Source: Lachnospiraceae bacterium
Lineage (GTDB): Bacteria > Bacillota > Clostridia > Lachnospirales > Lachnospiraceae
Assembly: GCA_024403615.1 (NCBI GenBank)
Contig: JAKSRM010000015.1
Span: 1 to 35,524 of the forward strand
Direction: 5' to 3'
DNA: 35,524 nt
Each line of letters starts with the position of its first letter. The stretch's first letter is position 1. The notes beneath the pieces are model-generated. The model was not told where the DNA came from and made no database searches. It worked only from the letters and a program-made list of their open reading frames with translations. The translations under genes were made by a program, and so were the position numbers. Positions 1 to 12,711 of this stretch are shown here, one piece after another.

Positions 1-678
1 CTCAGTTTGATTGACATGAAAATAGAAAACAATGAAGCGATAAACGATAATTTAGAGCAGCAGGCATTGGCGATTTACGATTCCATGTTTGGAAAAGCAA
101 ATTCTTTGAATGTCACTTTGGGGACGTTGAAGGACATAGCAGAAATCACTATGGGACAATCTCCCAGTGGCTCCAGTTACAATGAAGACGGTACTGGAGA
201 GGTTTTTTACCAAGGTCGTGCTGAATTTGGCTCTCGTTTTCCTACTCGCCGTTTGTTTACAACAGAACCAAAACGTATGGCGGAAGCTGGTGATGTCCTA
301 TTGAGTGTCCGTGCTCCTGTCGGCGCTCTCAATGTTGCTTATGAGCGCTGTTGTATCGGTCGTGGTCTTGGAGCAATACGCAGCAAGGATAATCATCAAT
401 CCTATGTTTTATACACAATGTTTGCCCTTCGTCCCGAACTGGACGTTTTCAATGGAGAAGGTACCGTGTTCGGCTCCATCAATCGAGATGCGTTGAACAA
501 CATGCCTATCAGTATTCCATCTGTTGAGGATTTGGATGCTTTTGAAGCCCTCGTTAGTCCTATAGATTCAATGATCCGAACCAACTATGAGGAAATATGC
601 CGTCTTCAGGCAATGCGAGATTCATTACTTCCTCGGCTGATGAGTGGAGAAATTGACGTCTCTGCTGTTGAAGTCTAA
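1..678 (+). CDS. hsdS: Type I restriction-modification specificity subunit HsdS, C-terminal half (5' end outside window)
   Basis: HsdS gives the type I methylase/restriction complex its DNA target specificity. The reading frame is open from base 1, so the gene enters from the left and only its second half is visible. The order seen is the central conserved helix (residues with NDNLEQQALAIYDSMF), a second target-recognition domain from about residue 38 to 165 (AEITMGQSPSG, then GDVLLSVRAPVGALN, typical of this domain), and the distal conserved helix ending in LLPRLMSGEIDV, a usual HsdS C-terminus. The TTG at 7 is probably not a start, because the coding sequence continues upstream. A cyclase-like gene follows 37 bases downstream and then hsdR, so hsdM is expected just left of the window. 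Family assignment is firm; the DNA target cannot be read from sequence. Confidence 0.93.
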   Translation, partial: LSLIDMKIENNEAINDNLEQQALAIYDSMFGKANSLNVTLGTLKDIAEITMGQSPSGSSYNEDGTGEVFYQGRAEFGSRFPTRRLFTTEPKRMAEAGDVLLSVRAPVGALNVAYERCCIGRGLGAIRSKDNHQSYVLYTMFALRPELDVFNGEGTVFGSINRDALNNMPISIPSVEDLDAFEALVSPIDSMIRTNYEEICRLQAMRDSLLPRLMSGEIDVSAVEV

Positions 679-715
679 GCCGCTAAATTATCGTTTATTA
701 GAAAAGAGGAATTGT

Positions 716-1765
716 ATGAAATATGTTGCATTTTTAGATGTATTGGGATTTAAAGACAAACTTAAAAAATTATCTCAAAATGATGCAAAGAATTATATCG
801 GAGATTTTTCGTCAACAATATATTCGTTATTTCAAAATATAAACAATAAAATAAATGGCTATATTGTTAGTGATTCAGTTATTTTGTATTCAAATGATGT
901 AGCCTCTGAATCTTTAAAAGGCTTGGTTACACTTGTAATTGATATTTGCAAAGAGGAATTTACTCAAAATGGAATTTTAATTCGAGGGGCAATATCAAAA
1001 GGTGAATTTGATAAAATGCCGGCTATAGAATTGCCCAAACTACAAAAACAACTAATTGTTGGACAAGCATATGTAGATGCTTATTTACTTGAAGATTCAA
1101 TGAAATCAATTGGAATTTCTCTAAGCAAAGAGGTTTATCAAGATATTGTTGGATTAAATTTAGATGTCAATTGTTACGATGAAAGTTCAAAAAACGAAGA
1201 AAAATATGTATTAAGCTATTTTGATTTCGAATTTATCAACAAATCAGAAAATCTGCTTAAATTTGTTGATTTGGCTATTGGCTCAAATTGGCGTCCGCAT
1301 TATTACAATGCGTTGTATTTAGCAATAAAAGATACAAAGAATAATAATCAAATATATCATTTGTTTGATCAGTTAATAGCCTGTATCGGGAATCCAAGTG
1401 AATGCTGGATGGAAATTGACAAATTTATTAAGAATACTTTTAATGACGATGTAATCTCATATTATCAAACACGGTTTTTAGGATATATTAGAGAACGCAT
1501 GCAGACATCAGAAAACAAAACACTATATATTGAAAAGCGGCCGAGCAATCGCGATAAAATATTGCAATACTTAAGAAATAATCCATACTCTTCGATTAAT
1601 TCGATTTCTGATGCACTTAATATTTCTGTCAAAGTTACTCAGAACTACATAAAAAAATTAATTGATGAAAAACAAGTGTTAGTTAATGAAGTAAGAGTGA
1701 TATATAACGATACTCAACGAAAAACAAAAACATACTCTTTAGCGGAATTTGATAATAACCTCTAA
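716..1765 (+). CDS. Nucleotide-cyclase-like domain fused to a C-terminal winged helix, unknown function
   Basis: A 349-residue protein. I chose ATG 716 because AGAGGA lies 5-6 bases upstream; an upstream in-frame ATG at 644 would overlap hsdS. Residues 3-140 resemble class III nucleotide cyclases: FLDVLGF with D8 in the first metal position, SDS with D53 in the second, an RGAISKGE segment near residue 90 and GQAYVDAYLLE at 116-126. The Asn and Arg that stabilise the transition state in classical cyclases seem replaced (V120, L124 by eye alignment), so activity is uncertain. Residues about 277-343 look like a winged helix-turn-helix. The middle is unrecognised. The gene is markedly AT-rich and sits between hsdS and hsdR in the same direction. 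It may be a defence-associated signalling protein or a regulator of the locus; both are inference. Confidence 0.6.
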   Translation: MKYVAFLDVLGFKDKLKKLSQNDAKNYIGDFSSTIYSLFQNINNKINGYIVSDSVILYSNDVASESLKGLVTLVIDICKEEFTQNGILIRGAISKGEFDKMPAIELPKLQKQLIVGQAYVDAYLLEDSMKSIGISLSKEVYQDIVGLNLDVNCYDESSKNEEKYVLSYFDFEFINKSENLLKFVDLAIGSNWRPHYYNALYLAIKDTKNNNQIYHLFDQLIACIGNPSECWMEIDKFIKNTFNDDVISYYQTRFLGYIRERMQTSENKTLYIEKRPSNRDKILQYLRNNPYSSINSISDALNISVKVTQNYIKKLIDEKQVLVNEVRVIYNDTQRKTKTYSLAEFDNNL

Positions 1766-1828: not shown

Positions 1829-4800
1829 ATGCCAGGTTTTATCGAAGCCGATTATGAAAATTCAGTAATAGAGTTATTTCAAAATATGGGCTATCAGCAT
1901 TTGTATGGTCCGAATATTGAAAGAGATTTTAAGAGCCCGTTGTATGATGGGATTCTTGAAGACTCCTTAAAAAGATTGAATCCTTCTTTGCCGGATGCTG
2001 CAATCAAGGATGCTTTGTATAAACTCAAGAATTTTGAGAACGGAACACTTGTACAGAAAAATACGGTTTTCATGAATTATCTTCAGAATGGCATTGAAGT
2101 AAGTTATCACGAAAACGGAGAAACAAAATCAGATATTGTTTATATCGTAGATTACAATAATCCGGACAACAATTCTTTTATAGTTGCAAATCAATGGACC
2201 TTCATTGAAAACAGTAATAAGCGCCCAGATGTTTTGCTTTTCTTAAACGGGATTCCTGTAGTACTAATAGAACTCAAATCTCCTTCCAGAGAAGAAACGG
2301 ATGCTTCCGAAGCATACCTCCAGATTCGAAATTATATGCAGGAGATTCCGGCCATGTTCATTTATAACGCAATCTGCGTAATGAGTGATATGTCTGTTTC
2401 AAAGGCTGGAACAATCACTTCCGGTGAAGACCGTTTTATGGAATGGAAGACGAAGGAAGGAGATTATGAAAATACACAATATGCTCAGTTTGATACCTTT
2501 TTTGAGGGAATGTTTCAAAAAGAGCGACTTCTTGATTTATTAAAAAACTTTATCTGTTTTAGTGAAGAAGGAATAGACTCCTACAAGATACTCGCAGGTT
2601 ATCATCAATACTTTGCTGTGCGCAAGGCCATCGATAGTACATGTAAAGCTGCTGCAGATGGTGGAGATGGAAAGGGTGGAGTTTTCTGGCATACACAGGG
2701 CTCAGGTAAATCTTTATCGATGGTGTTTTATGCCCATCTTCTTCAGCAAGCCCTCAATAGCCCAACAATTGTTGTAATTACAGACAGAAACGATCTGGAT
2801 GATCAGCTCTTTACCCAATTTGCAAAGTGTTCCGACTTCCTTCGTCAGAAACCAGAGCATGCTACTAGCAGAGAACACTTGATGAAATGGCTGGCTTCGA
2901 GGAATGCCAACGGAATCATTTTTACAACAATGCAGAAATTTGAAGAATCTGCTTCTGCATTATCCGAAAGAAGAAATATTGTCGTAATGGCGGATGAAGC
3001 TCATCGCAGTCAGTACGGCTTAACAGAAAAAATAAAAATTACAACGAATGAAGCTGGAGAACAGGAAGCAAAGAGAATCGTAGGAACTGCACGTATCATC
3101 CGTGACTGTCTTCCTAATGCTACTTTTATTGGATTTACAGGAACTCCTGTTTCTTCAAAGGATCACGATACCAGAGCGGTATTTGGTGATTACATTGATA
3201 TTTATGATATGACCCAGGCGGTAGAAGATGGAGCTACTCGCCCTGTTTACTACGAAAGCAGAGTCATCAAACTGAAATTGGATGAAGAAACCATCCATAT
3301 GATAGATCAGGAATATGACACTGTAGCTGCTTTGGACCAGGCGGATGAAAGCGTTATTCAGAAGAGCAAACAGATGCTTGGAAAGATGGAAGCGGTTTTA
3401 GGAAATCCACAGACCATAGATTCTCTCGTATTCGATATACTGGATCATTACGAGAATTACAGAGAGAATCTGCTTACAGGAAAAGCTATGATTGTAGCTT
3501 ATTCTCGTAATATTGCGATGAAAATATATCAACGAATTCTTGAACTTCGTCCGGGTTGGAACGATAAAGTTGCCGTTGTAATGACAGAGAGCAATAAAGA
3601 TCCGGAAGAGTGGAGAGGAATCATTGGAAATAAACGCCATAAGGAAGAACTGGCAAAGAAATTTAAAGACAATGACAGCCCTCTTAAAATTGCAATCGTT
3701 GTTGATATGTGGCTCACCGGATTTGATGTTCCGTCACTTGCTACGATGTATGTATATAAGCCAATGTCGGGACATAATCTGATGCAGGCTATTGCGCGAG
3801 TAAATCGAGTATTTAAGGAAAAAGAAGGTGGCTTGGTTGTAGATTATGTAGGCATAGCAAATGCTCTTAAGCAAGCTATGAATGACTATACTGCTCGTGA
3901 CCGTAAAAATTATGGAAATACAGATGTTGGTCAGGTCGCTTATCCAAAATTCCAGGAGAAACTGGAAGTATGTAGAGACTTGCTTGATGGCTATGATTAT
4001 GCGTCTTTCATGAATGGTTCAGATCTTGAGAGAGCAAAAATTATTAGTGGTGCTGTGAACTATGTGGCTGCTCCAGACAAAGCGGAACTACTTAAGACAT
4101 TCTTGAAAGAAGCATTCTTGCTGAAGCAAGCACTTTCCTTATGTTCGGCTCTTACAACAGAACCGGAAAGAATGGAAGCTGCTTTCTTTGAAGCAGTTCG
4201 CGTTATGGCTAACCGTATAATTGTTGAAGGCGGAAAATCAAAAATATCGTTAAAAGAATTAAACGACCGAATCAACGAACTTCTTAAACAGAGCATAAAG
4301 AGTGATGGTGTAATTAATCTGTTTGATGGCGTGAAAGAGGAATTCTCTTTATTCGATCCGAAGTTTTTGGAAGATATATCAAAAATGAAACAGAAGAATC
4401 TGGCGGTTGAATTACTGAAGAGATTGATTGCTGAACAGGTTGCTATTTACCGTGTGACAAATGTTGTTAAATCTCAGAAATTCAGCGAAATGATTCAGCG
4501 AATTATGAACCAGTATTTGAACGGAATGCTGACTAATCAGCAGGTTATCGATGAGCTTCTGAAGATGGCTCAAGATATTCGAAATGGTCATGATCAAGGA
4601 AAAGACATGGGACTGACTCCGGAAGAAATGGCTTTCTATGATGCACTGACAAAACCAGAAGCAATCAAAGACTTTTACGAGAATGAGGAATTGGTTGCAC
4701 TCACAAAAGAACTTACGGAAACATTAAATAGGAATAAGACTATCGATTGGCAGAAACGAGAAACCGCAAGAGCTAAGATGCGAATGATGATCAAAAAGCT

Positions 4801-4939
4801 TCTGAAGAAATATAAATATCCACCAGAGGGAATGGATGACGCTCTTGAAACCGTTATGACCCAGTGCGAATTATGGACAGACAATAATTACTTTGATGAG
4901 CGTATGGGAGTATATGCGGAAAGCATTGCGAGAATGTAA
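1829..4939 (+). CDS. hsdR: Type I restriction enzyme endonuclease/translocase subunit HsdR
   Basis: HsdR is the motor and nuclease of the type I restriction complex; it translocates DNA with ATP and cuts unmodified DNA. The 1036-residue length is normal. A PD-(D/E)xK nuclease core is visible at D134 and E148-x-K150 (RPDVLLFLNGIPVVLIELKS). The SF2 motor follows: Walker A GSGKS at 291-295, DEAHRS at 389-394, GFTGTP at 435-440, then a second RecA-like half with VDMWLTGFDVPSL and a QAIARVNR-type motif VI. The C-terminus is helical and would contact the methylase core. The start has a strong ribosome binding site (AGGAGG 8 bases upstream). All catalytic motifs look intact, so it should be functional if hsdM and hsdS are. 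It is separated from hsdS by the cyclase-like gene. Confidence 0.96.
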   Translation: MPGFIEADYENSVIELFQNMGYQHLYGPNIERDFKSPLYDGILEDSLKRLNPSLPDAAIKDALYKLKNFENGTLVQKNTVFMNYLQNGIEVSYHENGETKSDIVYIVDYNNPDNNSFIVANQWTFIENSNKRPDVLLFLNGIPVVLIELKSPSREETDASEAYLQIRNYMQEIPAMFIYNAICVMSDMSVSKAGTITSGEDRFMEWKTKEGDYENTQYAQFDTFFEGMFQKERLLDLLKNFICFSEEGIDSYKILAGYHQYFAVRKAIDSTCKAAADGGDGKGGVFWHTQGSGKSLSMVFYAHLLQQALNSPTIVVITDRNDLDDQLFTQFAKCSDFLRQKPEHATSREHLMKWLASRNANGIIFTTMQKFEESASALSERRNIVVMADEAHRSQYGLTEKIKITTNEAGEQEAKRIVGTARIIRDCLPNATFIGFTGTPVSSKDHDTRAVFGDYIDIYDMTQAVEDGATRPVYYESRVIKLKLDEETIHMIDQEYDTVAALDQADESVIQKSKQMLGKMEAVLGNPQTIDSLVFDILDHYENYRENLLTGKAMIVAYSRNIAMKIYQRILELRPGWNDKVAVVMTESNKDPEEWRGIIGNKRHKEELAKKFKDNDSPLKIAIVVDMWLTGFDVPSLATMYVYKPMSGHNLMQAIARVNRVFKEKEGGLVVDYVGIANALKQAMNDYTARDRKNYGNTDVGQVAYPKFQEKLEVCRDLLDGYDYASFMNGSDLERAKIISGAVNYVAAPDKAELLKTFLKEAFLLKQALSLCSALTTEPERMEAAFFEAVRVMANRIIVEGGKSKISLKELNDRINELLKQSIKSDGVINLFDGVKEEFSLFDPKFLEDISKMKQKNLAVELLKRLIAEQVAIYRVTNVVKSQKFSEMIQRIMNQYLNGMLTNQQVIDELLKMAQDIRNGHDQGKDMGLTPEEMAFYDALTKPEAIKDFYENEELVALTKELTETLNRNKTIDWQKRETARAKMRMMIKKLLKKYKYPPEGMDDALETVMTQCELWTDNNYFDERMGVYAESIARM

Positions 4940-5067
4940 GTTGGTTGTGGGTAATTGGAAGCAACAATGGGAAAATGGTTGAAACCAGAATGGGATATTA
5001 CGGCCAAGTTTAAATGGCACAGTAAATAATTTGACCGAATATAAACGTGATAATACAGAAAATACAA

Positions 5068-5099
5068 AGGAAACTGAATTTGTTCAGTTTCCTCTTTTA
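5068..5099 (+). terminator. Rho-independent terminator after hsdR
   Basis: A perfect 11-bp inverted repeat, AGGAAACTGAA (5068-5078) and TTCAGTTTCCT (5083-5093), with a TTTG loop and a following CTTTTAT. It closes the restriction operon. The A-rich left flank could let it work weakly on the other strand too, for the convergent GIY-YIG gene. Confidence 0.85.
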
Positions 5100-5182
5100 T
5101 AAGAATAAGAAATATTGAAAAGGTGTTTAATTGTAGAATATGAAAGGTAGCGTCCTAACATAATTGGGCAAAGCTAATTCAT

Positions 5183-6031
5183 TTATATTTGATTTTCTTC
5201 AATTTCTTTTAGTGGCTTGTTGTCGGAAGTTTTCCATTCGGTTTTTCCATTTGCATTGCGGCCCATAACGATGGCTGCTGCTGTTGATGGGCTAGTAAAG
5301 GAATAATCCCTTGTGAACTTGAATTCTGCATTTATTATACCTTTTTCAAGAAGGCTTGTCCGTATGCGTATCAAGCTTGCAGACATGCTAGCTACTGTAG
5401 AAGTTGCAATCATTGATCCTTCAAGTACGGCAAAACCATCTGATACTATAATTCCTTTGGCATCTGCACCACGTGTAGTTTTTATGTAAAATTCACTTTC
5501 GCTATTTTGCGTATTTATTTTATTATCTTCAATGGTATCGAATGTTTTATATCCAAGAGCATTTACAAGTAATTTAGTGTTACTAATAAATTCCAATAAC
5601 ATTGCCTCATCAAATTCTGAAATTGACGGACAATTTGGAATGGAACTGTTTGCAATAACGGTTTTGTTGGCGTTTTTGGCTAGTGAATAAAACTGATTCT
5701 CAAGATATTTCACATGCGCTTTGTTAAGAAGATTATCTTTGCTAATTACAACTATGAAGTCGTTCCAATATACTTTCTCATTCAAATGCTGTTTTAACCT
5801 CGTCATTATTTTTTCGGCTTCTCCGATATATACCGTATCTTCATTATTATCATTTTTTCCAAACAAAAAATAAACTCCAGTATTATCTGAATCGGACCGT
5901 TTTGAAAACTCAAGAAGTTCATTTCGGGATACTTTATATACGCGTCCATTCCAGTTTGATATTTCACACATAATTCGTCCATTTGGATTTCCGTCGAAAA
6001 TAAACATTTGAATTGTTTTGCTGAATCCCAT
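5183..6031 (-). CDS. GIY-YIG nuclease family protein with C-terminal DUF4357
   Basis: A 282-residue protein. Residues 52-125 form a GIY-YIG-type fold: GVYFLFG at 52-58, VYIGEAEKIMTRLKQH at 67-82 with the usual Arg (R78), and KYLENQFY with the usual metal-binding Glu (E111). Residues about 210-278 match DUF4357, a domain often attached to such nucleases (visible as SLIRIRTSLLEKG, then FTSPSTAAAIVMGR and GKTEWKT). The start has AGAAGG 10 bases upstream. The gene converges on hsdR. Proteins of this type are frequent beside restriction-modification loci, but their role is not established. It is probably part of the accessory island rather than a DNA repair gene. The family call is solid; the function is not. 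Confidence 0.85.
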   Translation of the reverse strand: MGFSKTIQMFIFDGNPNGRIMCEISNWNGRVYKVSRNELLEFSKRSDSDNTGVYFLFGKNDNNEDTVYIGEAEKIMTRLKQHLNEKVYWNDFIVVISKDNLLNKAHVKYLENQFYSLAKNANKTVIANSSIPNCPSISEFDEAMLLEFISNTKLLVNALGYKTFDTIEDNKINTQNSESEFYIKTTRGADAKGIIVSDGFAVLEGSMIATSTVASMSASLIRIRTSLLEKGIINAEFKFTRDYSFTSPSTAAAIVMGRNANGKTEWKTSDNKPLKEIEENQI

Positions 6032-6573
6032 AATTTATAAACCTTCTCTTTCACAAATTTGACTAAAAATACTGCGCACAACCTTAAAAAGTATAACGTG
6101 CTAAATACTGATTTAAAGATATGTCATAACATCGTTCATGTCAAGGCACGCTGTGACTAGGTTGTTTCTCTTTTTTCTAACATTGGTTTCGGAAGATTTC
6201 GACAGATATATTTGATATAAATGATAGTGTGGCAAATAATGGTGGAATAAAGGGTATTTTGTTTTCAACGCGACAATCCCCAATAAATCCAGAATGAAAC
6301 ATAAATGCGCGATAATTTCGTTTCAGTGCACTTGCATGCGCGATATTTCACTTTCAGTGAGGTAAACGCACGAAAATGGCTGAAATAGCTCACTGAAACT
6401 AAGAAATCGCGCATTTTTCTTGCTTTTCTCGCGCAAGTCCAGATTTCGCCAAGCTCTACGCCAACAAGGCGACTATGAATATGTGGTCCGGGGGAAAGAT
6501 GAATTAAGTTACTCTTGACGAACACTAACATGTTAGGCGACAATCAGCAGGAACGTTAATGAAGGAGGCTGCT
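6032..6573. other. 542-bp gene-free interval between the GIY-YIG gene and nnrE
   Basis: No convincing gene is seen here. The left 250 bases are AT-rich. The middle holds a repeat cluster (listed separately). From about 6430 to 6505 the composition turns GC-richer and one plus-strand frame ends in YANKATMNMWSGGKMN before a TAA, which looks like the tail of a decayed gene. A perfect 12-bp palindrome CTAACATGTTAG lies at 6525-6536, 38 bases before nnrE, and could be an operator. The minus-strand frame at 6265-6543 has no recognisable domain and runs through the repeats. Confidence 0.5.
6303..6416. repeat. Three-copy short repeat (two direct, one inverted) forming a long hairpin
   Basis: A unit close to ATGCGCGAT..TTTC..TTTCAGTG occurs at 6305-6328, again in direct orientation at 6336-6359, and inverted at 6391-6414. 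Copies two and three form extended hairpin arms: TTTCAGTGAG at 6352-6361 pairs exactly with CTCACTGAAA at 6390-6399, and GCGCGAT pairs further out. The layout resembles REP-like or MITE-like palindromic elements, but no transposase is nearby and the family is unknown to me. Confidence 0.7.
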
Positions 6574-7206
6574 ATGCCATACTGTGTATCTGTTGCCACC
6601 ATGCGCGAGAGCGATGCGTGGACCATCGAAAATAAAATAAGTTCCAAAGAGCTCATGGGTCGAGCAGGAACGGCCATTTACGAGGCGACTTCTTGGAAGG
6701 CACCGGTCGCAATTGTCTGTGGCAAGGGAAACAACGCCGGCGACGGATTCGTGGTTGCGAATCTGCTCGCCGAGGCGAATATTCCAGTGGACATTTTCCT
6801 ACTGTCGGACAGCTTTTCCGACGACGGAAAGTATTATCACGACATCTGCGAAGCCCGCAGCATCCGTTCCATCGCCTTTGAGGAGGGCATGTCCTTTGCG
6901 GAATATGGCTCCGTTTTGGACTGCATTTTCGGCACCGGATTCTCTGGCGAGCCGAGAGGCATCTATGGGACCGCCATCGATGCCATCAATGCTTCCGGCG
7001 CCTATGTGGTTTCTGCGGATATCAATTCCGGGCTCAACGGCGACACTGGGCTGGGCACGAAGTATGTGAAGTCGGATCTGACGGTTTCCATCGGAACCTT
7101 CAAGCCGGGCCATTTCCTGGGTCTGGCCAAGGAGGCCATGAAAGAGAAAGTCAACGCCGACATCGGCATCGAAATCCAAGGCGAATATATTTGGGTGGAA
7201 GAATAA
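6574..7206 (+). CDS. nnrE: NAD(P)H-hydrate epimerase (YjeF N-terminal domain), stand-alone
   Basis: Epimerises the R form of damaged NAD(P)H hydrate so that the dehydratase NnrD can repair it. The 210-residue protein holds the YjeF_N core: GKGNNAGDG at 50-58 (nucleotide/substrate loop), IFGTGFSGEPRG near 118-129, and SADINSGLNGDTG with the usual catalytic Asp at 149. In many bacteria this domain is fused to NnrD; here it stands alone, which is also common. ATG 6574 was chosen because AAGGAGG lies 5 bases upstream; an earlier in-frame ATG at 6559 would place that site inside the gene. Its GC content is clearly higher than its flanks. Broken pieces of a second copy occur at 8104 and 10150, so the locus has been duplicated or rearranged. 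Confidence 0.92.
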   Translation: MPYCVSVATMRESDAWTIENKISSKELMGRAGTAIYEATSWKAPVAIVCGKGNNAGDGFVVANLLAEANIPVDIFLLSDSFSDDGKYYHDICEARSIRSIAFEEGMSFAEYGSVLDCIFGTGFSGEPRGIYGTAIDAINASGAYVVSADINSGLNGDTGLGTKYVKSDLTVSIGTFKPGHFLGLAKEAMKEKVNADIGIEIQGEYIWVEE

Positions 7207-7310
7207 AGTTTTTTTAACAGATTCGTAAAAATGTATACGTGGAAAAGCAATGATTGATGTGCTAATATAAGTTCATCTGGAGAGCTCCTGCCTCAGTGGA
7301 GGTCTTAACT

Positions 7311-7340
7311 ACTGGAGGGATTTTCCCTCCAGTTTCTATC
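7311..7340 (+). terminator. Strong hairpin between nnrE and the toxin-antitoxin pair, likely terminator
   Basis: ACTGGAGGGA (7311-7320) pairs perfectly with TCCCTCCAGT (7324-7333), followed by TTCTATCATTT. A weaker CTCC/GGAG hairpin lies just upstream (about 7285-7302). The tail is T-rich but not a pure run, so this could instead be the end of a small transcript from the 7207-7310 gap. Confidence 0.6.
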
Positions 7341-7371
7341 ATTTCTCAAAAGGAATTCAATTAAAAAAAGA

Positions 7372-7418
7372 TAGACTTTATTAAATTTACCCTTTATAAT
7401 TTGCTTAGCTAACCTAGG
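7372..7418 (+). promoter_or_regulatory. Promoter and possible operator of the Phd-VapC pair
   Basis: A -35-like TAGACT (7372-7377), a 17-base spacer and a perfect TATAAT (7395-7400). Just downstream are two short palindromes, TTAGCTAA (7405-7412) and CCTAGG (7413-7418), where an autoregulating antitoxin could bind. Antitoxins of this family usually repress their own promoter; the operator assignment is inference. Confidence 0.6.
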
Positions 7419-7436
7419 CAGAATATGGAGGGTGAC

Positions 7437-7688
7437 ATGACTTCGGTGAATATGTTTGAAGCAAAAACAAATCTTTCGAAATATGTATTGGCGGTCGAAG
7501 AGAAAAAGGAGGCTTATATTTTGATTACGCGTAACGGAAAACCGGTTGCTAAAATAGTGCCTTATGACGATCCGCCGCAAACGCGCATAGGATTGGGAAA
7601 AGGAATCCTTCCTGAAATGCCGTCGTTGGATGAGTTTAACAGCATTTCAGTTGAAGATAATTTTTTGGATGATGGAGGAGTTTTTTAA
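7437..7688 (+). CDS. Phd/YefM-family antitoxin
   Basis: An 83-residue protein that should neutralise the PIN toxin encoded next to it and repress the shared promoter. It opens with MTSVNMFEAKTNLSKYV, the Phd/YefM DNA-binding fold, and continues with ILITRNGKPVAKIVPYD, the classic end of that domain. The acidic C-terminal stretch (residues about 60-83) would wrap the toxin. ATG 7437 was chosen over an upstream ATG at 7425 because GGAGGG lies about 5 bases before it. The stop codon overlaps the toxin start by one base (TAATG), the usual coupled layout. Partner and family are clear; which nucleic acid the toxin attacks is not. Confidence 0.9.
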   Translation: MTSVNMFEAKTNLSKYVLAVEEKKEAYILITRNGKPVAKIVPYDDPPQTRIGLGKGILPEMPSLDEFNSISVEDNFLDDGGVF

Positions 7689-8095
7689 TGAAACTGCTTT
7701 TAGATACCCATGTTCTTATCTGGGCGCTGACGGACGATAAAAATCTTCCGGAGAGAATTGCTGATATGATTAATGATAGGGACAATATAGTATATTTCAG
7801 TGCTGCTTCGTTGTGGGAACTGGCGATTAAAAATTATAAAGCGCCGGAGAAGTGCCCTTATGACGAAGCGGTTGTTGAAGAAATCAGTATTCGTTCTGGA
7901 TTTCATTGTTTGAATATTAACAGTGACCATATTAAAAGCATCCGGACGTTAAGGACGAAGCAAGGCTGTGAATTAGCAAATTATGACCCGTTTGATCGAA
8001 TGCTGATATCTCAGGCAAAAACGGAAGGAGCTTTCCTGCTGTCCCATGATAAGAATTTTCAATATTATGAAGAGCCGTGTATAGAGCGGTTTTAG
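7688..8095 (+). CDS. PIN-domain ribonuclease toxin, VapC family
   Basis: A 135-residue PIN-domain protein, the expected length for VapC toxins, which cut specific RNAs when freed from the antitoxin. The acidic metal site is intact by eye: LLLDTHVLIW with D6 near the N-terminus, SAASLWELAIK with Glu near residue 44, and ANYDPFDRMLISQA with the Asp pair near residues 100-103, followed by LLSHD. The start lies on the antitoxin stop and has GGAGGAG about 8 bases upstream. Eight bases after its stop begins a fragment of a second nnrE. The pair is a self-contained cassette between nnrE and that fragment. Confidence 0.92.
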   Translation: MKLLLDTHVLIWALTDDKNLPERIADMINDRDNIVYFSAASLWELAIKNYKAPEKCPYDEAVVEEISIRSGFHCLNINSDHIKSIRTLRTKQGCELANYDPFDRMLISQAKTEGAFLLSHDKNFQYYEEPCIERF

Positions 8096-8103
8096 GAGTG
8101 GTT

Positions 8104-8172
8104 ATGCCCAACTGTGTATCTGTTGCCACCATGCGCGAGAGCGATGAGTGCGAGATGATTGGTCGCCAGTGT
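8104..8172 (+). pseudogene. 5' fragment of a second nnrE copy
   Basis: Bases 8104-8146 match 41 of 43 bases of the start of intact nnrE (6574-6616), giving MPNCVSVATMRESDE. The match then skips roughly 30 bases and resumes briefly (an E-M-I-G-R stretch against E-L-M-G-R) before being lost; the frame stops soon after. It keeps a ribosome-binding-like AGGAGTGG. The 3' end of the same broken gene reappears at 10150. Confidence 0.88.
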
Positions 8173-8380
8173 ACTTGCAAGTCCTGAAAAATGCCCTTGT
8201 ATTTGTTATCATTGATATAGTACGAATGTTTAAATGAAAAATTAAACCTGTACTTTGATAACTGGAAAATTTTATGAAACTAGATGGGAGCTTGTAGCAT
8301 GAACTTAATGGACATGACCGATTACAAGATTTCCGTAAGTTGGAAGGGAGTAAATAACTTTTTGAAATAAGAGGTAAAAT

Positions 8381-8698
8381 ATGGAAAAAAATAATGGACA
8401 TAGTTCTTGGGGACTCTTTGGAAATATAAATCACTATGATGAACATGGACATAAAGTTGGCGAAAGCAGACCGGGCCTTTTCGGTGGGATGAATGAATAT
8501 GATGACAAAGGTAATAAGGTTGGCGAAAGTTTTGTAGGACTCTTTGGAAATGTAAATCATTATGATGAACATGGTCATAAAGTTGGTGAGAGCCATCCGG
8601 GACTTTTTGGCGATTATAATCATTACGATGATAATGGACATAAAAAAGGGCATAGCTCACCAGGACTTTTGGGTGATTGGAATCATTATGATGATTAA
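8381..8698 (+). CDS. Small protein made of five 21-residue tandem repeats, unknown function
   Basis: A 105-residue protein I do not recognise by name. After a seven-residue head (MEKNNGH) it consists entirely of 21-residue units with a consensus close to S-x-P-G-L-F-G-x-x-N-H-Y-D-E-H-G-H-K-V-G-E. Units begin at residues 8, 29, 50 and 71, with a 14-residue partial unit at 92. No signal peptide or membrane segment is seen, so it is probably cytoplasmic. Conserved Asp, His and aromatic positions could bind metal, but this is inference. The start has AGAGG 7 bases upstream, and a strong terminator follows the stop. It forms its own transcription unit inside the split nnrE region, just upstream of the ADP-ribosyltransferase-like gene. 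Long minus-strand frames here are shadows of the repeats. Confidence 0.75.
   Translation: MEKNNGHSSWGLFGNINHYDEHGHKVGESRPGLFGGMNEYDDKGNKVGESFVGLFGNVNHYDEHGHKVGESHPGLFGDYNHYDDNGHKKGHSSPGLLGDWNHYDD
8402..8695 (+). repeat. 63-bp in-frame tandem repeat, 4.7 units
   Basis: Units start at 8402, 8465, 8528, 8591 and 8654 (last one partial). Units one and three are the most alike, as are their reading frames (…GLFGN-x-NHYDEHGHKVGE), suggesting that a two-unit block was duplicated. Confidence 0.85.
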
Positions 8699-8737
8699 TA
8701 TAAATGCTAAAAATAGTATGATTGAATAATGGATATA

Positions 8738-8769
8738 AAAAGCTTCTATTACAAGTGATAGAAGCTTTT
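8738..8769 (+). terminator. Rho-independent terminator after the repeat-protein gene
   Basis: AAAAGCTTCTAT (8738-8749) pairs perfectly with ATAGAAGCTTTT (8758-8769) around an 8-base loop. The T run is inside the stem, so it may act in both directions. Confidence 0.8.
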
Positions 8770-8803
8770 GCTATAGGATATTCTCCCGATATAGAACATT
8801 GAC

Positions 8804-8834
8804 AACTATACTCCTTTGGGAGTATAGTTTTTTT
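8804..8834 (+). terminator. Terminator-like hairpin directly before the DUF3990 start, possible attenuator
   Basis: AACTATACTCC (8804-8814) pairs perfectly with GGAGTATAGTT (8819-8829) around a TTTG loop, followed by TTTTT to base 8834. The next base begins an ATG. The only ribosome-binding-like sequence for that ATG, GGGAG at 8818-8822, is mostly inside the 3' arm. The hairpin is therefore either a plain terminator of upstream transcription or a control element for the gene that follows. Confidence 0.75.
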
Positions 8835-9539
8835 ATGAAAAAAATAGAAACGATGAAAAGAATCTATCATGGTTCAGAAAACAGAATAGAAAAGCCGATT
8901 TATGGTTTTGGGAAAAAGTACAACGATTATGGTCTGGGGTTTTATTGCACGGAGACGATCGACATGGCAAAAGAATGGGCGGTTGATGCAGACCAAAATG
9001 GATGTGCGAACATATACGACCTGGACATGAAAGGGCTTACGCTGTTGAACTTGAATGGTCCGGAATACTGCATGCTGCACTGGTTGTCGGTGCTTTTGCA
9101 GAATCGTGAATTCGACTGTACGTCACTATTGGCGAATGAGGCGAGGGAATACTTGACGGACTATTTTTTACCGGATTATTCTTCTGCGGACCTGATTGTC
9201 GGATACCGCGCAGATGATAGCTACTTTTCTTTTGCGCAGGATTTTTTGAATGGTACTATTTCTTATCGGCAGCTTTCTGCAGCGATGCATTTAGGTAAAT
9301 TAGGACAACAGATTGTCCTAAAAAGTGAGAAGGCTTTTTCTCAGTTAACTTTTGTAGATACGGAGATTGCGAAGGCTGAGGAGTGGTTTATAAAGAAACA
9401 GATTCGGGATAAAAATGCAAGAAGAGAATATTTTGACATGGAGCGTAACAAGCGCCAGCGAGGAGATTTATACATCACGCAAATATTAGATGAGGAGATG
9501 AAGGCAGATGATGAACGCTTACGACCGAATATATCTTGA
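8835..9539 (+). CDS. DUF3990 protein, ADP-ribosyltransferase-like, likely toxin of a toxin-antitoxin pair
   Basis: A 234-residue protein (228 if the second ATG at 8853 is used). Its N-terminal half reads IYHGSENRIEKPIYGFGKK and GLGFYCTE followed by AKEWA, the DUF3990 pattern, a family placed with ADP-ribosyltransferase folds. The YHGS and FYCTE segments correspond to NAD-binding strands. A likely C-terminal glutamate region is LGQQIVLKSEKAFSQLTFV. No signal peptide is visible. The start is uncertain: ATG 8835 follows immediately on a terminator hairpin that contains its only ribosome binding site, and ATG 8853 has none. The stop overlaps the next gene by 32 bases. The toxin role is inferred from the fold and from coupling to an XRE protein. 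Confidence 0.72.
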   Translation: MKKIETMKRIYHGSENRIEKPIYGFGKKYNDYGLGFYCTETIDMAKEWAVDADQNGCANIYDLDMKGLTLLNLNGPEYCMLHWLSVLLQNREFDCTSLLANEAREYLTDYFLPDYSSADLIVGYRADDSYFSFAQDFLNGTISYRQLSAAMHLGKLGQQIVLKSEKAFSQLTFVDTEIAKAEEWFIKKQIRDKNARREYFDMERNKRQRGDLYITQILDEEMKADDERLRPNIS

Positions 9540-10143
9540 GGCTGCCAGAAACTCTTTTGGCAGGATGTTAGACTACGCTGTGTATGATTTGAAATATGAT
9601 CTGACGGAGTTCTGGGAACTGTTTCTTTCTTCCGATGTTTCGAAAAAGTTAGAGCGAGGGGATGTGTCTGTTCTGGCCGGAAGATCTGGTGTGGAGATGG
9701 CGTTGATGGTAACTGGAAAAGAAAAAATCTATACCGAACCATTTTATGCAGAAGAAAAAAGCTCGGAGTATTGGCTTGGTTGGGCGCTGGCTTATTACCA
9801 ATGGAAGACTTGCCTATCCTTTTCGCAAATTACGGAGCAAGTTTCTATTATGGAGATGTTGCGTATGTATTCGCCATATCATGAGATGGACATTCAGCAT
9901 TTCTGTGACAAGCTTTCTGAGAAATACGAAGCCAGAAAACGGCAGACAAATTTAAAACATAAGCGTCTGGCAGCAGGCCTAAGTCAGTCACAGCTAGCGG
10001 AATTAACCGGTATTCCGGTCCGCACAATTCAGCAATATGAACAAAATCAAAAAGACATTAACAAGGCGAGGGCAGAATACTTGATTGCATTGGCCCGTGC
10101 CCTTTACTGCGACCCTGCGGGATTGTTAGAAATAAGGGAATAA
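9508..10143 (+). CDS. Unknown N-terminal domain with C-terminal XRE helix-turn-helix, likely antitoxin of the DUF3990 gene
   Basis: A 211-residue protein overlapping the DUF3990 gene by 32 bases. Starts at ATG 9508 or the adjacent ATG 9511 are both possible; a GGAG lies about 10 bases upstream of the first. Residues 1-140 are unrecognised and mostly helical, beginning MMNAYDRIYLEAARNSFG. Residues about 147-205 are a clear XRE helix-turn-helix (KRLAAGLSQSQLAELTGIPV, then TIQQYEQNQKDINKA). Such a pairing fits an ART-type toxin with a DNA-binding antitoxin that autoregulates, although here the toxin gene comes first. Its stop codon is followed after only six bases by the 3' scrap of the second nnrE. 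Confidence 0.72.
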   Translation: MMNAYDRIYLEAARNSFGRMLDYAVYDLKYDLTEFWELFLSSDVSKKLERGDVSVLAGRSGVEMALMVTGKEKIYTEPFYAEEKSSEYWLGWALAYYQWKTCLSFSQITEQVSIMEMLRMYSPYHEMDIQHFCDKLSEKYEARKRQTNLKHKRLAAGLSQSQLAELTGIPVRTIQQYEQNQKDINKARAEYLIALARALYCDPAGLLEIRE

Positions 10144-10149
10144 ACTTTG

Positions 10150-10227
10150 AAGGAGGCCATGAGAGAAAAAGTCAACGCCGACATCGGCATCGAAATCCGC
10201 GGCGAATATATTTGGGTGGAAGAATAG
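10150..10227 (+). pseudogene. 3' fragment of a second nnrE copy
   Basis: These 78 bases match the last 78 bases of intact nnrE (7129-7206) at 73 positions, including the stop codon (TAG instead of TAA). The encoded tail reads EKVNADIGIEIRGEYIWVEE. With the 5' scrap at 8104 it brackets the repeat-protein and DUF3990/XRE genes; about 500 bases of the middle of nnrE are missing. Confidence 0.9.
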
Positions 10228-10240
10228 AAAGATGATATTA

Positions 10241-10268
10241 AAAAGAGACCTTGAAAAAGGTCTCTTTT
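10241..10268 (+). terminator. Perfect 12-bp hairpin after the nnrE 3' fragment
   Basis: AAAAGAGACCTT (10241-10252), GAAA loop, AAGGTCTCTTTT (10257-10268). With A and T runs at the base of the stem it should terminate in both directions. It probably ends the DUF3990/XRE transcript. Confidence 0.85.
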
Positions 10269-10299
10269 CTATTGCTTCATGAAAAATGAAAAACTTTTT

Positions 10300-10505
10300 T
10301 TTTGCAGGAATGTTGAAGGTGACAGCGCCGCCTGCATTTCCGTAAAAGTCTGCCTCATAGGTAATCTCAATCTGATTGCCACCCAAGTATTTGATTTCGT
10401 ATGGCCACATATAATCCGGATCCATCATATCCACTCTGCCAAGGACTTCGCCGTAACCAAAACCATGCCTAAAATGACCGCTTTAAGACTTTTTCTTTTT
10501 CCCAT
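10300..10505 (-). pseudogene. Decayed gene for a secreted or membrane-anchored protein
   Basis: On the minus strand ATG 10505 has a good ribosome binding site (AGAAGG) and a TATAAT-like box upstream (10537-10542). It opens MGKRKSLKAVILGMV, like a signal peptide, then soon stops at 10425. A second frame carries sensible protein sequence through the same stretch (GYGEVLGRVDMMDPDYMWPY, then IKYLGGNQIEITYEADFYGN) and ends near a nine-base T run. A frameshift joining the two frames near 10450-10475 is the simplest reading. I do not recognise the family. Confidence 0.5.
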
Positions 10506-10581
10506 TATTGGCACCTTCTTTTCATGAATTTTGTCTATTATACGATGAAATTCCTTAAACCGCTTGTACTTCATAAAATCC

Positions 10582-10611
10582 TTGAACACCCCATCAAAAA
10601 TGTTATATAAT
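10582..10611 (+). promoter_or_regulatory. Promoter of the VPKTG surface protein gene
   Basis: TTGAAC (10582-10587), an 18-base spacer and a perfect TATAAT (10606-10611), 51 bases before the start codon. Confidence 0.65.
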
Positions 10612-10661
10612 AACTTCATATTTCCACAAGAATAATTTATATTTATGTACAGGGGGGAAAA

Positions 10662-11741
10662 ATGAAAAAGAAGTTTTTTTCTAAATCTGTTGCAAGCATT
10701 CTTGTAATGCTTATGACTGTTGCGATTATTGCTGTGCCTACATTGGCTAAAACATACGGAAACGAAGAAGTAGCTACGAAAAATCTTGCGGTTGGTGACG
10801 AAATTATTTCAAAATATACCGATCTCAAGAATGAGTCTGCTGATAATACCGACCATATTTATTTATGTCCGAATAAAGAGAAGGCTGATGAGAAATATAA
10901 TATGAACGATTTTGCTATAGCTCCAGGAGAATCCGTATGTCTTATGGAAGCTTATTCGCCAGAGTCTTCGGGTGAGCCGATTACAGGTGCTTATACTTGG
11001 ATTGTAGGACAGACCGATATTGATTCAGGCTATGGAACTTCTGGACTGGCAATTTATGTTTACCCAAGTGACCATACTCACACATGGGGCGATCCGTATT
11101 CTTATGCGGATGATATAATTGACGTTAGTTGTAAAGTTTGTTTTCATTCATTAGAATCTGCTCAGATAACTGCAGATGATGCTAATTATGATGGACAGCC
11201 ACATGGCGCTGCAATCAACGGGGAAAGTAATTGGAATTCAGCAGGATTTGATTTTAGTATTCATTACACAGGAATTGATGAAACGGACTATGATTCCGAC
11301 GATGCTCCTGTAGATGCAGGAACATATAGAGCCACTATGGCATGCGGCAGTGCTACGGCGTATACGGATTTCACTATTAACCCAAGAGCGCTTGTAGTTA
11401 AAGGATTGAAGGACACTTATGACTACACTGGCAAAGGCGTTGTCGGATCTGGCGATTACACTGTATACGGCGTTAACGACACAGTTCTTAAAGAGGGCGA
11501 AGACTATATAGTTTCTATCGACGGCGGCAAAGCTGACAATTCCGGTGAAGGAAAACACCTCATCGAGTTCATCAGCAAAAATGATAACTATACTTCCGTT
11601 GAATTCGAGTACACAATCGTTAAGACGGATGTGCCTAAGACTGGCGATAGCAACAATGCAATCCTTTATGTATTCGGCGCAATCGCAGCATTAGGACTTG
11701 GCTTCGTTGCAGTTGCTAAAAGACGTGAAGGCATGGATTGA
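10662..11741 (+). CDS. Sortase-anchored surface protein (VPKTG motif)
   Basis: A 359-residue exported protein. Residues 1-30 are a signal peptide (KKK, then a hydrophobic stretch ending PTLAK). The C-terminus has a complete cell-wall sorting signal: VPKTG at 324-328, a hydrophobic segment, then AKRREGMD. The P and T-G of LPXTG are kept with V in place of L. Residues about 178-260 look like an MBG-type immunoglobulin-like repeat (ANYDGQPHG … DAGTYRAT … FTINPRALVV), and a second copy may follow (GLKDTYDYTGK … EYTIVK). The middle is unrecognised. The start has a GGGGGG ribosome binding site. A class B sortase is encoded 8 kb downstream; whether it handles this motif is unknown. A long hairpin follows the stop. 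Confidence 0.85.
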   Translation: MKKKFFSKSVASILVMLMTVAIIAVPTLAKTYGNEEVATKNLAVGDEIISKYTDLKNESADNTDHIYLCPNKEKADEKYNMNDFAIAPGESVCLMEAYSPESSGEPITGAYTWIVGQTDIDSGYGTSGLAIYVYPSDHTHTWGDPYSYADDIIDVSCKVCFHSLESAQITADDANYDGQPHGAAINGESNWNSAGFDFSIHYTGIDETDYDSDDAPVDAGTYRATMACGSATAYTDFTINPRALVVKGLKDTYDYTGKGVVGSGDYTVYGVNDTVLKEGEDYIVSIDGGKADNSGEGKHLIEFISKNDNYTSVEFEYTIVKTDVPKTGDSNNAILYVFGAIAALGLGFVAVAKRREGMD

Positions 11742-11764
11742 AATAACTAAATAGAGCATGTGAA

Positions 11765-11802
11765 ATCAAAGGGGCTCCTTCGTAGGAAGGAGCCCCTTTG
11801 AT
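11765..11802 (+). terminator. 17-bp perfect hairpin between the surface protein gene and the GNAT gene
   Basis: ATCAAAGGGGCTCCTTC (11765-11781) pairs without mismatch with the 3' arm 11786-11802. There is no T run after it. The ribosome binding site of the next gene, AAGGAG at 11787-11792, and its ATG at 11801 lie in the 3' arm, so the hairpin could block translation of read-through transcripts as well as end transcription. Confidence 0.7.
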
Positions 11803-12711
11803 GAAAGAAAATATTATGAATATACGAGATATTATTGCTGCGGATCCTGCGCTTTATGCGGATATGAGAGAATCCCTCCGGAGACAGAGCGTGAGCGTCG
11901 TTTATGAATCGGAGAGCGTTCTGATAACGCTGGAGAATGATTGGAAATCCGCCACCCGGATGAGGCGGACTTTTCCTATGTGCAGGCGAACTACCACATG
12001 GGCGACGGTTACGAGCTGTACAACGATTTCAAGAGCGACGACTTTTTCGCATGTTATTTAGACGGCCAGATTATGGGCTTCATCGGCCTTCACAACGAAG
12101 GGGCCGTAGGCCTTTTGCACATTGATAAAGCGCATCGCGAGAAGGGCTTCGGCTATGAGATGGCGGCGTTCATGTTGGCCCATCAGATGGAAAAGGGTCG
12201 CATCCCATACGGCCAGATTTACGAAAGCAACAAGGCTTCCCTGGAGCTGAACGCCAGCTTGGGCATGGAGCTTTCCGAGGGCCGGTTGTATTGGGTGACG
12301 AACCGGAAGTTTATCACATATAAGGAGACAAAAGATTTTAAGGCGGACGACATCGAACGATTATTCCTGTCGGTCAATTGGGAGTCCGGACGTTATCCGG
12401 AAAAATTGGTGAAGGCGATGCACAACTCGACCCATGTAGTGTCCGCGTGGGACCGCGACCGTTTGGTAGGACTGGTGCGGGCGCTGGACGATGGCGAAAC
12501 CGTAGCGTTTTTGCACTATCTGCTGGTGGATCCGGAGTACCAAGGCATGAAAATCGGGGAAGAATTGATGAAGAGAATCCTCGCCCATTTCGAGAATCAT
12601 TTGTATGTGAAGATCATGACTTCCAACCCAAAGACCATTCCGTTCTATGAGAAATTCGGCTTCCAGATTTACGACAACTATTCCGCAATGGTACGGAGGA
12701 GGGGTGAGTAG
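11801..12711 (+). pseudogene. Double-GNAT acetyltransferase gene with a one-base frameshift
   Basis: The first 47 codons (MKENIMNIRDIIAADPALYA through VLITLEND) are in one frame and the remaining 256 codons in another. Restoring one G near 11943 turns GAT TGG AAA into GAT TGG GAA and gives a continuous END-WEIRHPDEADF junction, so a single-base deletion explains the break. The rebuilt protein would have about 303 residues and two GNAT domains: one around GAVGLLHIDKAHREKGFGYE and one around LLVDPEYQGMKIGEELMKR followed by NPKTIPFYEKFGF. GNAT enzymes transfer acyl groups from acyl-CoA to amines; the substrate is unknown. The downstream part could still be translated from TTG 11941. A sequencing error cannot be excluded. 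Confidence 0.8.

Follow-up and report, generated by a model that had tools for sequence, protein, structure and literature searches.

The 35,524-nt stretch of Lachnospiraceae DNA analysed here (the window; JAKSRM010000015.1, contig C7 below) is one of 29 contigs of a genome assembly that is 87% complete. The contig begins inside hsdS of a type I restriction system and contains, between hsdS and hsdR and directly before hsdR, an open reading frame (ORF) for a cyclase-like protein. The usual description of a type I system has three genes. A sequence-only reading of this DNA had assigned the ORF two metal-binding residues, D8 and D53, and a winged helix, and this description was confirmed by Pfam, the structure model and alignment (Table 1). 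The protein is predicted to contain three parts, namely a class III cyclase homology domain, a helical domain, and a winged helix-turn-helix.

The first of these parts is predicted to adopt the class III cyclase fold, which bears out the earlier assignment at the level of a structure model and a profile alignment. No Pfam class III cyclase match (PF00211) was obtained for the protein by sequence, the DUF2652 model is absent from its Pfam matches at E ≤ 1, and the cyclase part has no PADLOC match at the same threshold. Sequence searches of solved structures, whether the query was the protein or profile A3 or A5, returned no believable relative; the fold link rests on predicted structure and profile alignment. 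The canonical reference comprised 12 class III domains from PF00211 matches in 101 genomes (13 loci, L108–L120, were taken, L114 was dropped for lack of the motif used for excision, and L121–L123 were unused). Against this reference, the diverse profile A3 aligned over 134 columns with an E value of 9.2e-5 and a probability of 59%. The distant set A5, made up of 58 sequences (9 hsdS-linked members plus 49 from the 120 listed homologues), gave 4.4e-4 and 33%, and the close-family profile A2 alone, built from the window and 94 of 281 matches (95 sequences), gave 0.03 and 2%.

With A3, D8 and D53 align to the two canonical metal-binding Asp columns; A2 alone places D8 but not D53. V120 occupies the transition-state Asn column and L124 the Arg column, and Y49 and L113 sit in the columns of the base-selecting Lys and Asp of class III cyclases. 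Both metal Asp residues are present in 95/95 sequences of the close set and 58/58 of the distant set. D8, K13, D53, R90, G96, G116, Y119, E126, and K130 are invariant among the 95, and the distant set has an extra invariant Pro-Arg following the motif. The Asn column holds Val or Ile in all 95 sequences, and the Arg column holds Leu in 76 and Arg in one. Tyr or Phe fills the base-Lys column in 90 of the 95, and L113 is found throughout at the base-Asp column. By alignment, the metal-binding Asp pair of class III cyclases is kept, and both the transition-state Asn/Arg and the base-selecting Lys/Asp are replaced. Retention of the metal side together with replacement of the chemistry side favours ligand binding over catalysis. 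The suspicion that Asn and Arg are lost is thus upheld, and the protein is likely a ligand binder rather than an enzyme.

Homologues of the cyclase-like gene recur beside type I genes. The two A2 scans gave 74 loci from genome contigs and eight from viral contigs, which with the window locus itself makes 83; L011 and L081 have no cyclase ORF in the gene map and were kept in this denominator. Type I genes were sought with hidden Markov models (HMMs) of HsdM, HsdS, and HsdR, whose seeds came from these loci and which were partly checked with Pfam; divergent genes may escape this search. They lie beside the homologue in 13 of the 83 loci. In a survey of homologue position such as the sequence-only reading had proposed, hsdS was the immediate upstream gene in 11 of the 83, where ∼0.06 would be expected by chance (∼0.0007 per gene, from PF01420 in 101 genomes, 59 positive with 174 domain matches, at an assumed 2,500 genes per genome). 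Without the window and three near-copies (L003, L052, and L079) the count is 8 of 79 loci, with a binomial value of 1e-15; this value treats loci as independent, ignores shared ancestry and assumes ∼2,500 genes per genome.

Two gene orders are seen among the type I-linked loci (Table 1). The L029 contig starts at the cyclase-like gene and hsdM of L082 is short; the cyclase-like gene of L007 is separated from the upstream hsdS by an integrase, an hsdS half and a 319-aa gene. Coupling to the flanking genes is close in the distant loci. In five of them the ORF shares 4 nt with hsdS, and an overlap of 8–22 nt with the hsdM ORF is seen in L014, L046, L049, L052, and L082; ORFs were counted from the first start codon and some overlaps may shrink. 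In L036 two tandem members lie between hsdS and hsdM, both with both Asp residues and both without Asn and Arg. The two (7932–9788) are only ∼28% identical to each other. A 501-aa protein is encoded right after the cyclase-like gene in L002 (8874–10379, before hsdR; no Pfam match) and in L003 (2311–3816). On a tree of 84 rows the type I label requires nine changes, at least seven of them forced by well-supported branches, and falls in two separate regions, suggesting that the type I partnership was gained or lost several times. The tree omits L001 (identical with the window), L008, L009, and L010 (fragments cut inside the cyclase-like gene), L079 (a copy of L041), L011, and L081, and includes 6 of the 20 later loci L084–L103.

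The hsdS block of the source genome likely inverts and would then be phase-variable. Contig C8 opens, on its minus strand, with an hsdS 5′ half (171 aa), hsdM (N6_Mtase, 1.5e-109), and an HNH gene. C8:1–55 is identical to window 644–698 over 55 nt, and divergence sets in exactly at the repeat ATAAACGATAATTTAG, beyond which C8 continues into a different hsdS 5′ half. From this overlap we infer that C7 and C8 adjoin, in which case hsdM, hsdS, and hsdR of one type I system would all be present. At least two hsdS 5′ halves exist, since that on C8 differs from that at window 1–39. The exact repeat has three copies in the available genome sequence, all at these hsdS sites. A 16-nt inverted repeat with two different junctions, as inversion gives in an assembly, argues for an inverting hsdS. 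The hsdS locus is split across two contigs (window 1–700 and L104 1–2859), with the HNH endonuclease gene upstream of hsdM.

L007 and L068 likewise have hsdS halves, repeat arms at four places each, and a tyrosine recombinase (Phage_integrase, 3.3e-34 in L007, with which the L068 protein shares 71% identity). The cyclase-like gene of L068 follows the first hsdS, and a repeat arm precedes its ATG by 21 nt. The 87%-complete source genome yielded no homologue of the L068 recombinase, and L002 has no such hsdS repeats. The L068 gene lies inside its four-arm hsdS shufflon (6245–9307), with an AbiTii gene before hsdR, and the L007 gene lies beside one (4043–6973). Inverting hsdS loci are known, some with further genes of unknown function (PMC7394358). 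They resemble the present locus in its two hsdS 5′ halves, its inverted repeats within hsdS and its two junctions, and L007 and L068 in the recombinase, whereas the cyclase-like gene is an addition here; the word ‘cyclase’ is absent from the main text of that paper.

The winged helix proposed by the sequence-only reading is present in the window but is a minority feature of the family. A long form (330–365 aa) accounts for 25 of 120 listed homologues, 22 of these 25 with a precomputed Pfam domain. Apart from the window, none of the complete close-family loci fetched has the winged helix, and only the window has an HTH_24 match among 25 diverse members scanned. The remaining complete type I-linked homologues are of a short form of 238–287 aa. 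In L004 (861–1763) a tblastn match does not end with the stop at residue 265 but extends into the winged-helix region, which may mean that a winged helix has decayed there. L141 (543–1685) encodes a 380-aa member whose additional N-terminal part resembles a helix-turn-helix by eye, and in protein P0063 a PF03235 (DUF262) piece is fused in frame at the N terminus of the cyclase-like domain.

The conserved metal site, the replaced catalytic columns and the close ORF linkage to hsdS across operons together suggest an accessory nucleotide-binding subunit. We tentatively favour, at somewhat less than even confidence, the view that the cyclase-like protein is an accessory, probably non-cyclising subunit that would sense nucleotides and gate a nuclease. 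The protein would contact the HsdM/HsdS complex, and a nucleoside triphosphate (NTP) with Mg would occupy the cyclase pocket. The nucleotide state, altered by phage or during a specificity switch, would then decide whether HsdR cuts, and the winged helix may tether the protein to DNA or to the operon. After an hsdS switch new sites would be briefly unmodified and restriction would have to wait; the likely inverting hsdS suggests such a use. Control of a nuclease by nucleotides has a precedent in another defence system, GajA (PMC8136825).

Several observations weigh against this reading. The profiles match canonical class III domains only modestly (59% for A3, 33% for A5, 2% for A2), and the winged helix is missing from most listed relatives. 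Loss of Asn alone is no proof of inactivity, as Rv1900c is likewise without it (PMC4886424). The inversion was read from one incomplete assembly, which may be mixed or faulty. Within the close family, type I linkage is found in 5 of 11 loci; L005 and L006 have no restriction gene within their flanks by HMM, and the same holds for L004, with just 860 nt of upstream flank covered. The later loci L084–L103 add no new type I case, type I genes there being only on stretches of the window and L082 contigs. Among 391 genomes of the class, A5 gave 11 matches at E ≤ 1e-20, 10 of them without a type I gene nearby and the eleventh the L014 genome again (flanks of up to 8 kb per side, less at contig ends; 11 of the loci L137–L151 were read as ORF lists only). 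Five further, weaker loci have no type I gene in the flanks fetched. The proposal of an accessory component of type I systems is supported as to recurrence (13/83 loci) and not supported as to exclusivity (10 of 11 unselected homologues).

The family is not confined to type I systems, as judged from these unselected homologues and from members that neighbour Gabija, AbiE, Dsr1, or further restriction genes. With an E-value cutoff of 1e-5, a profile of the nine hsdS-linked members finds at least 4,311 proteins, and none of the 120 listed among them has a Pfam domain. The family is rare close to its source; the window protein itself matches 3 of 195 relatives, one being itself and one matching in the winged-helix part only. 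As a single query it found no relative in viral contigs and phage records and one distant match, from Pigmentibacter, among plasmids; viral contigs searched once more, now with the hsdS-linked profile, yielded three loci, of which one was the L082 contig already known and the other two had no type I genes. Neighbours were scanned at 28 loci without the three hsd genes, 11 of them chosen partly by eye and 17 for operon-like neighbours. Of these 28, 10 have a restriction or defence match among the neighbours (Table 1), or 10 of 31 if three plasmid loci, which have no defence gene by annotation, are counted; the other 18 have metabolic, phage, other or no matches. We regard this wider defence linkage as a lead, not a statistic. 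It would fit a bolder proposal, which we consider speculative and on the unlikely side, that this large unnamed family of catalytically silent class III folds is a shared nucleotide-state sensor for many defence nucleases (type I systems, which would have acquired it repeatedly, and also Gabija, AbiE, Dsr1, and further systems). Upon a change in the NTP pool or in a phage nucleotide the sensor would give its partner nuclease licence to act, and a winged helix, added in some members, would hold it on DNA.

PrrC of EcoprrI occupies the slot hsdS-prrC-hsdR and has an ABC-ATPase part. It is an anticodon nuclease encoded by a gene embedded in the type IC operon prrABD, and is sequestered in the type I complex until T4 infects (PMC3874165). 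By analogy, the cyclase-like protein might be a latent abortive-infection factor that the type I complex silences and that is freed when a phage anti-restriction protein disables the complex. The AbiTii gene in the L068 operon and the family members beside AbiE and Dsr1 are in keeping with such a guard. Unlike PrrC, the protein has a predicted cyclase fold, and no ABC ATPase, HEPN, nuclease (including anticodon nuclease) or toxin domain was matched in it (Pfam, NCBIfam and PADLOC, E ≤ 1; the helical part, residues 171–267, was not searched separately). A toxin would also hardly need the DNA-binding tail of the long form. We consider the guard unlikely.

The winged helix, the position directly before hsdR, and the repeat arm 17 nt before the ATG could instead indicate a regulator. 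The winged helix would bind the operon and the nucleotide-bound cyclase domain would set expression of hsdR or hsdS, for instance delaying hsdR after hsdS inversion against self-cutting at new unmodified sites. The hsdS halves, repeats, and recombinase in L007 and L068 fit this scheme, but the short form of the other complete type I-linked homologues and the lack of such repeats in L002 do not. A promoter before hsdR was unsupported, as 3 promoter-like sites were counted around the hsdR start against a mean of 7.8 in shuffled sequences. Such transcriptional control seems to us rather doubtful.

An active nucleotidyl cyclase might alternatively make a signal that triggers an effector as in Pycsar, its product perhaps being unusual or its missing residues coming from a partner. 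PycC likewise has a class III fold in a defence setting (PMC11224242), and both metal Asp residues and R90 are invariant here. The tandem members of L036 are what a heterodimer might need, but neither supplies Asn or Arg, so complementation by one copy is unsupported, and the transition-state and base columns are replaced across the family, with Arg at its column in 1 of 95 sequences. In contrast to Pycsar, no cyclic nucleotide (cNMP)-binding TIR or transmembrane effector gene adjoins the cyclase-like gene, whose neighbours are hsdS and hsdR, and the sole cNMP_binding protein (PF00027) found in the 87%-complete genome is encoded on contig C23; the sequence-only reading had likewise seen no separate effector. 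The PycC structures 7R65 and 6YII (PMC11224242) are not among the 50 structure matches listed, which excludes nothing. Across 25 diverse members at a threshold of 0.1, the only PADLOC matches were six models on the winged-helix region of the window and one weak Cas3f match (0.019), PADLOC's coverage of PycC clades being unverified. Messenger synthesis appears improbable. Least probable is a mobile passenger gene inserted by chance beside defence genes on islands and not working with them, for although its spread is patchy (an A2 match is present in 2 of 392 genomes from the order and in 3 of 398 from the phylum, its own genome included in both), many members lie in unrelated contexts and recombinases or transposases lie near some, the slot immediately after hsdS recurs across tree regions and operon orders and the ORFs of the distant group overlap their neighbours at both ends.

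The canonical class III cyclases (PF00211; e.g., Rv1625c and soluble guanylate cyclase) differ from the cyclase-like protein in the Asn/Arg and Lys/Asp columns, and also lack its extra helical domain and the winged helix of some members. DUF2652 proteins, which are uncharacterised bacterial class III-like proteins of ∼250 aa, are similar in that a mycobacterial set has no Asn; that set retains Arg, however (PMC4886424), and the cyclase-like protein has no Pfam match to DUF2652. The word ‘restriction’ does not occur in the main text of the same paper. No description of a cyclase fold with a metal site but without catalytic residues, repeatedly beside hsdS, was seen in searches of open-access literature, which mostly do not reach subscription journals. 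Extra genes in type I operons, inverting hsdS, and defence cyclases are all known; a predicted cyclase fold stripped of the usual catalytic residues, in the slot after hsdS, is apparently new.

To our knowledge, how a type I nuclease is restrained, above all on a switch of hsdS specificity, is still an open question. A recurring fourth gene after hsdS with a nucleotide-pocket fold makes this question testable. If the accessory-subunit reading is correct, the cyclase fold would be used in defence as a sensor rather than as a messenger factory, and restriction would be linked to systems regulated by nucleotide level such as Gabija.

Table 1. Features of the window and of loci carrying members of the family (cyc, cyclase-like gene).
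Locus	Feature	Position	Strand	Basis or remark
Window	cyc, 349 aa	716..1765	+	three predicted parts
Window	class III cyclase homology domain (predicted), residues 1-169	716..1222	+	structure model
Window	D8 codon	737-739	+	metal site
Window	D53 codon	872-874	+	metal site
Window	V120, L124			at transition-state Asn and Arg sites, respectively
Window	helical domain, residues 171-267
Window	winged helix-turn-helix, residues 278-342	1547..1741	+	PF13412, 1.2e-7 over residues 281-318; structure model
Window	hsdS, 3′ part	1..678	+	PF01420, 3.1e-8; start beyond contig end
Window	inverted-repeat arm ATAAACGATAATTTAG, 16 nt, inside hsdS	40..55	+
Window	opposite inverted-repeat arm, 16 nt	683..698	-	17 nt before ATG of cyc
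Window	hsdR, 1036 aa	1829..4939	+	HSDR_N, SWI2_SNF2, T1RH-like_C
Window	GIY-YIG + DUF4357 protein	5183..6031	-	PADLOC candidate PDC-S14, 1.6e-107; convergent with hsdR
Window, L002, L003, L007, L068	order hsdM-hsdS-cyc-...-hsdR			as far as contigs reach
L014, L029, L036, L046, L049, L050, L052, L082	order hsdR-...-hsdS-cyc-...-hsdM
L009	ResIII/PLD/DUF3427 protein			1 nt upstream of family member
L028	N6_N4 methylase and Fic			neighbours
L035	PDC-S26			neighbour
L045	type III restriction enzyme			neighbour
L060	methylase-Mrr			neighbour
L146	PD-Lambda-5_B methylase			neighbour
L150	member directly upstream of GajA, GajB	7953-12689		overlaps preceding ORF by 4 nt
L100	GajA-GajB			neighbours, one gene between
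L101	member after AbiEi-AbiEii	4229-6819		plasmid-borne
L102	member directly after Dsr1	2268-6852		plasmid-borne

Beyond hsdR, the window encodes the convergent GIY-YIG and DUF4357 protein, for which we make no claim of membership in the hsd/cyclase-like system. Further downstream, at 7425–8095, a small ORF overlaps a PIN-domain gene in an arrangement that resembles a VapBC-type toxin-antitoxin pair.
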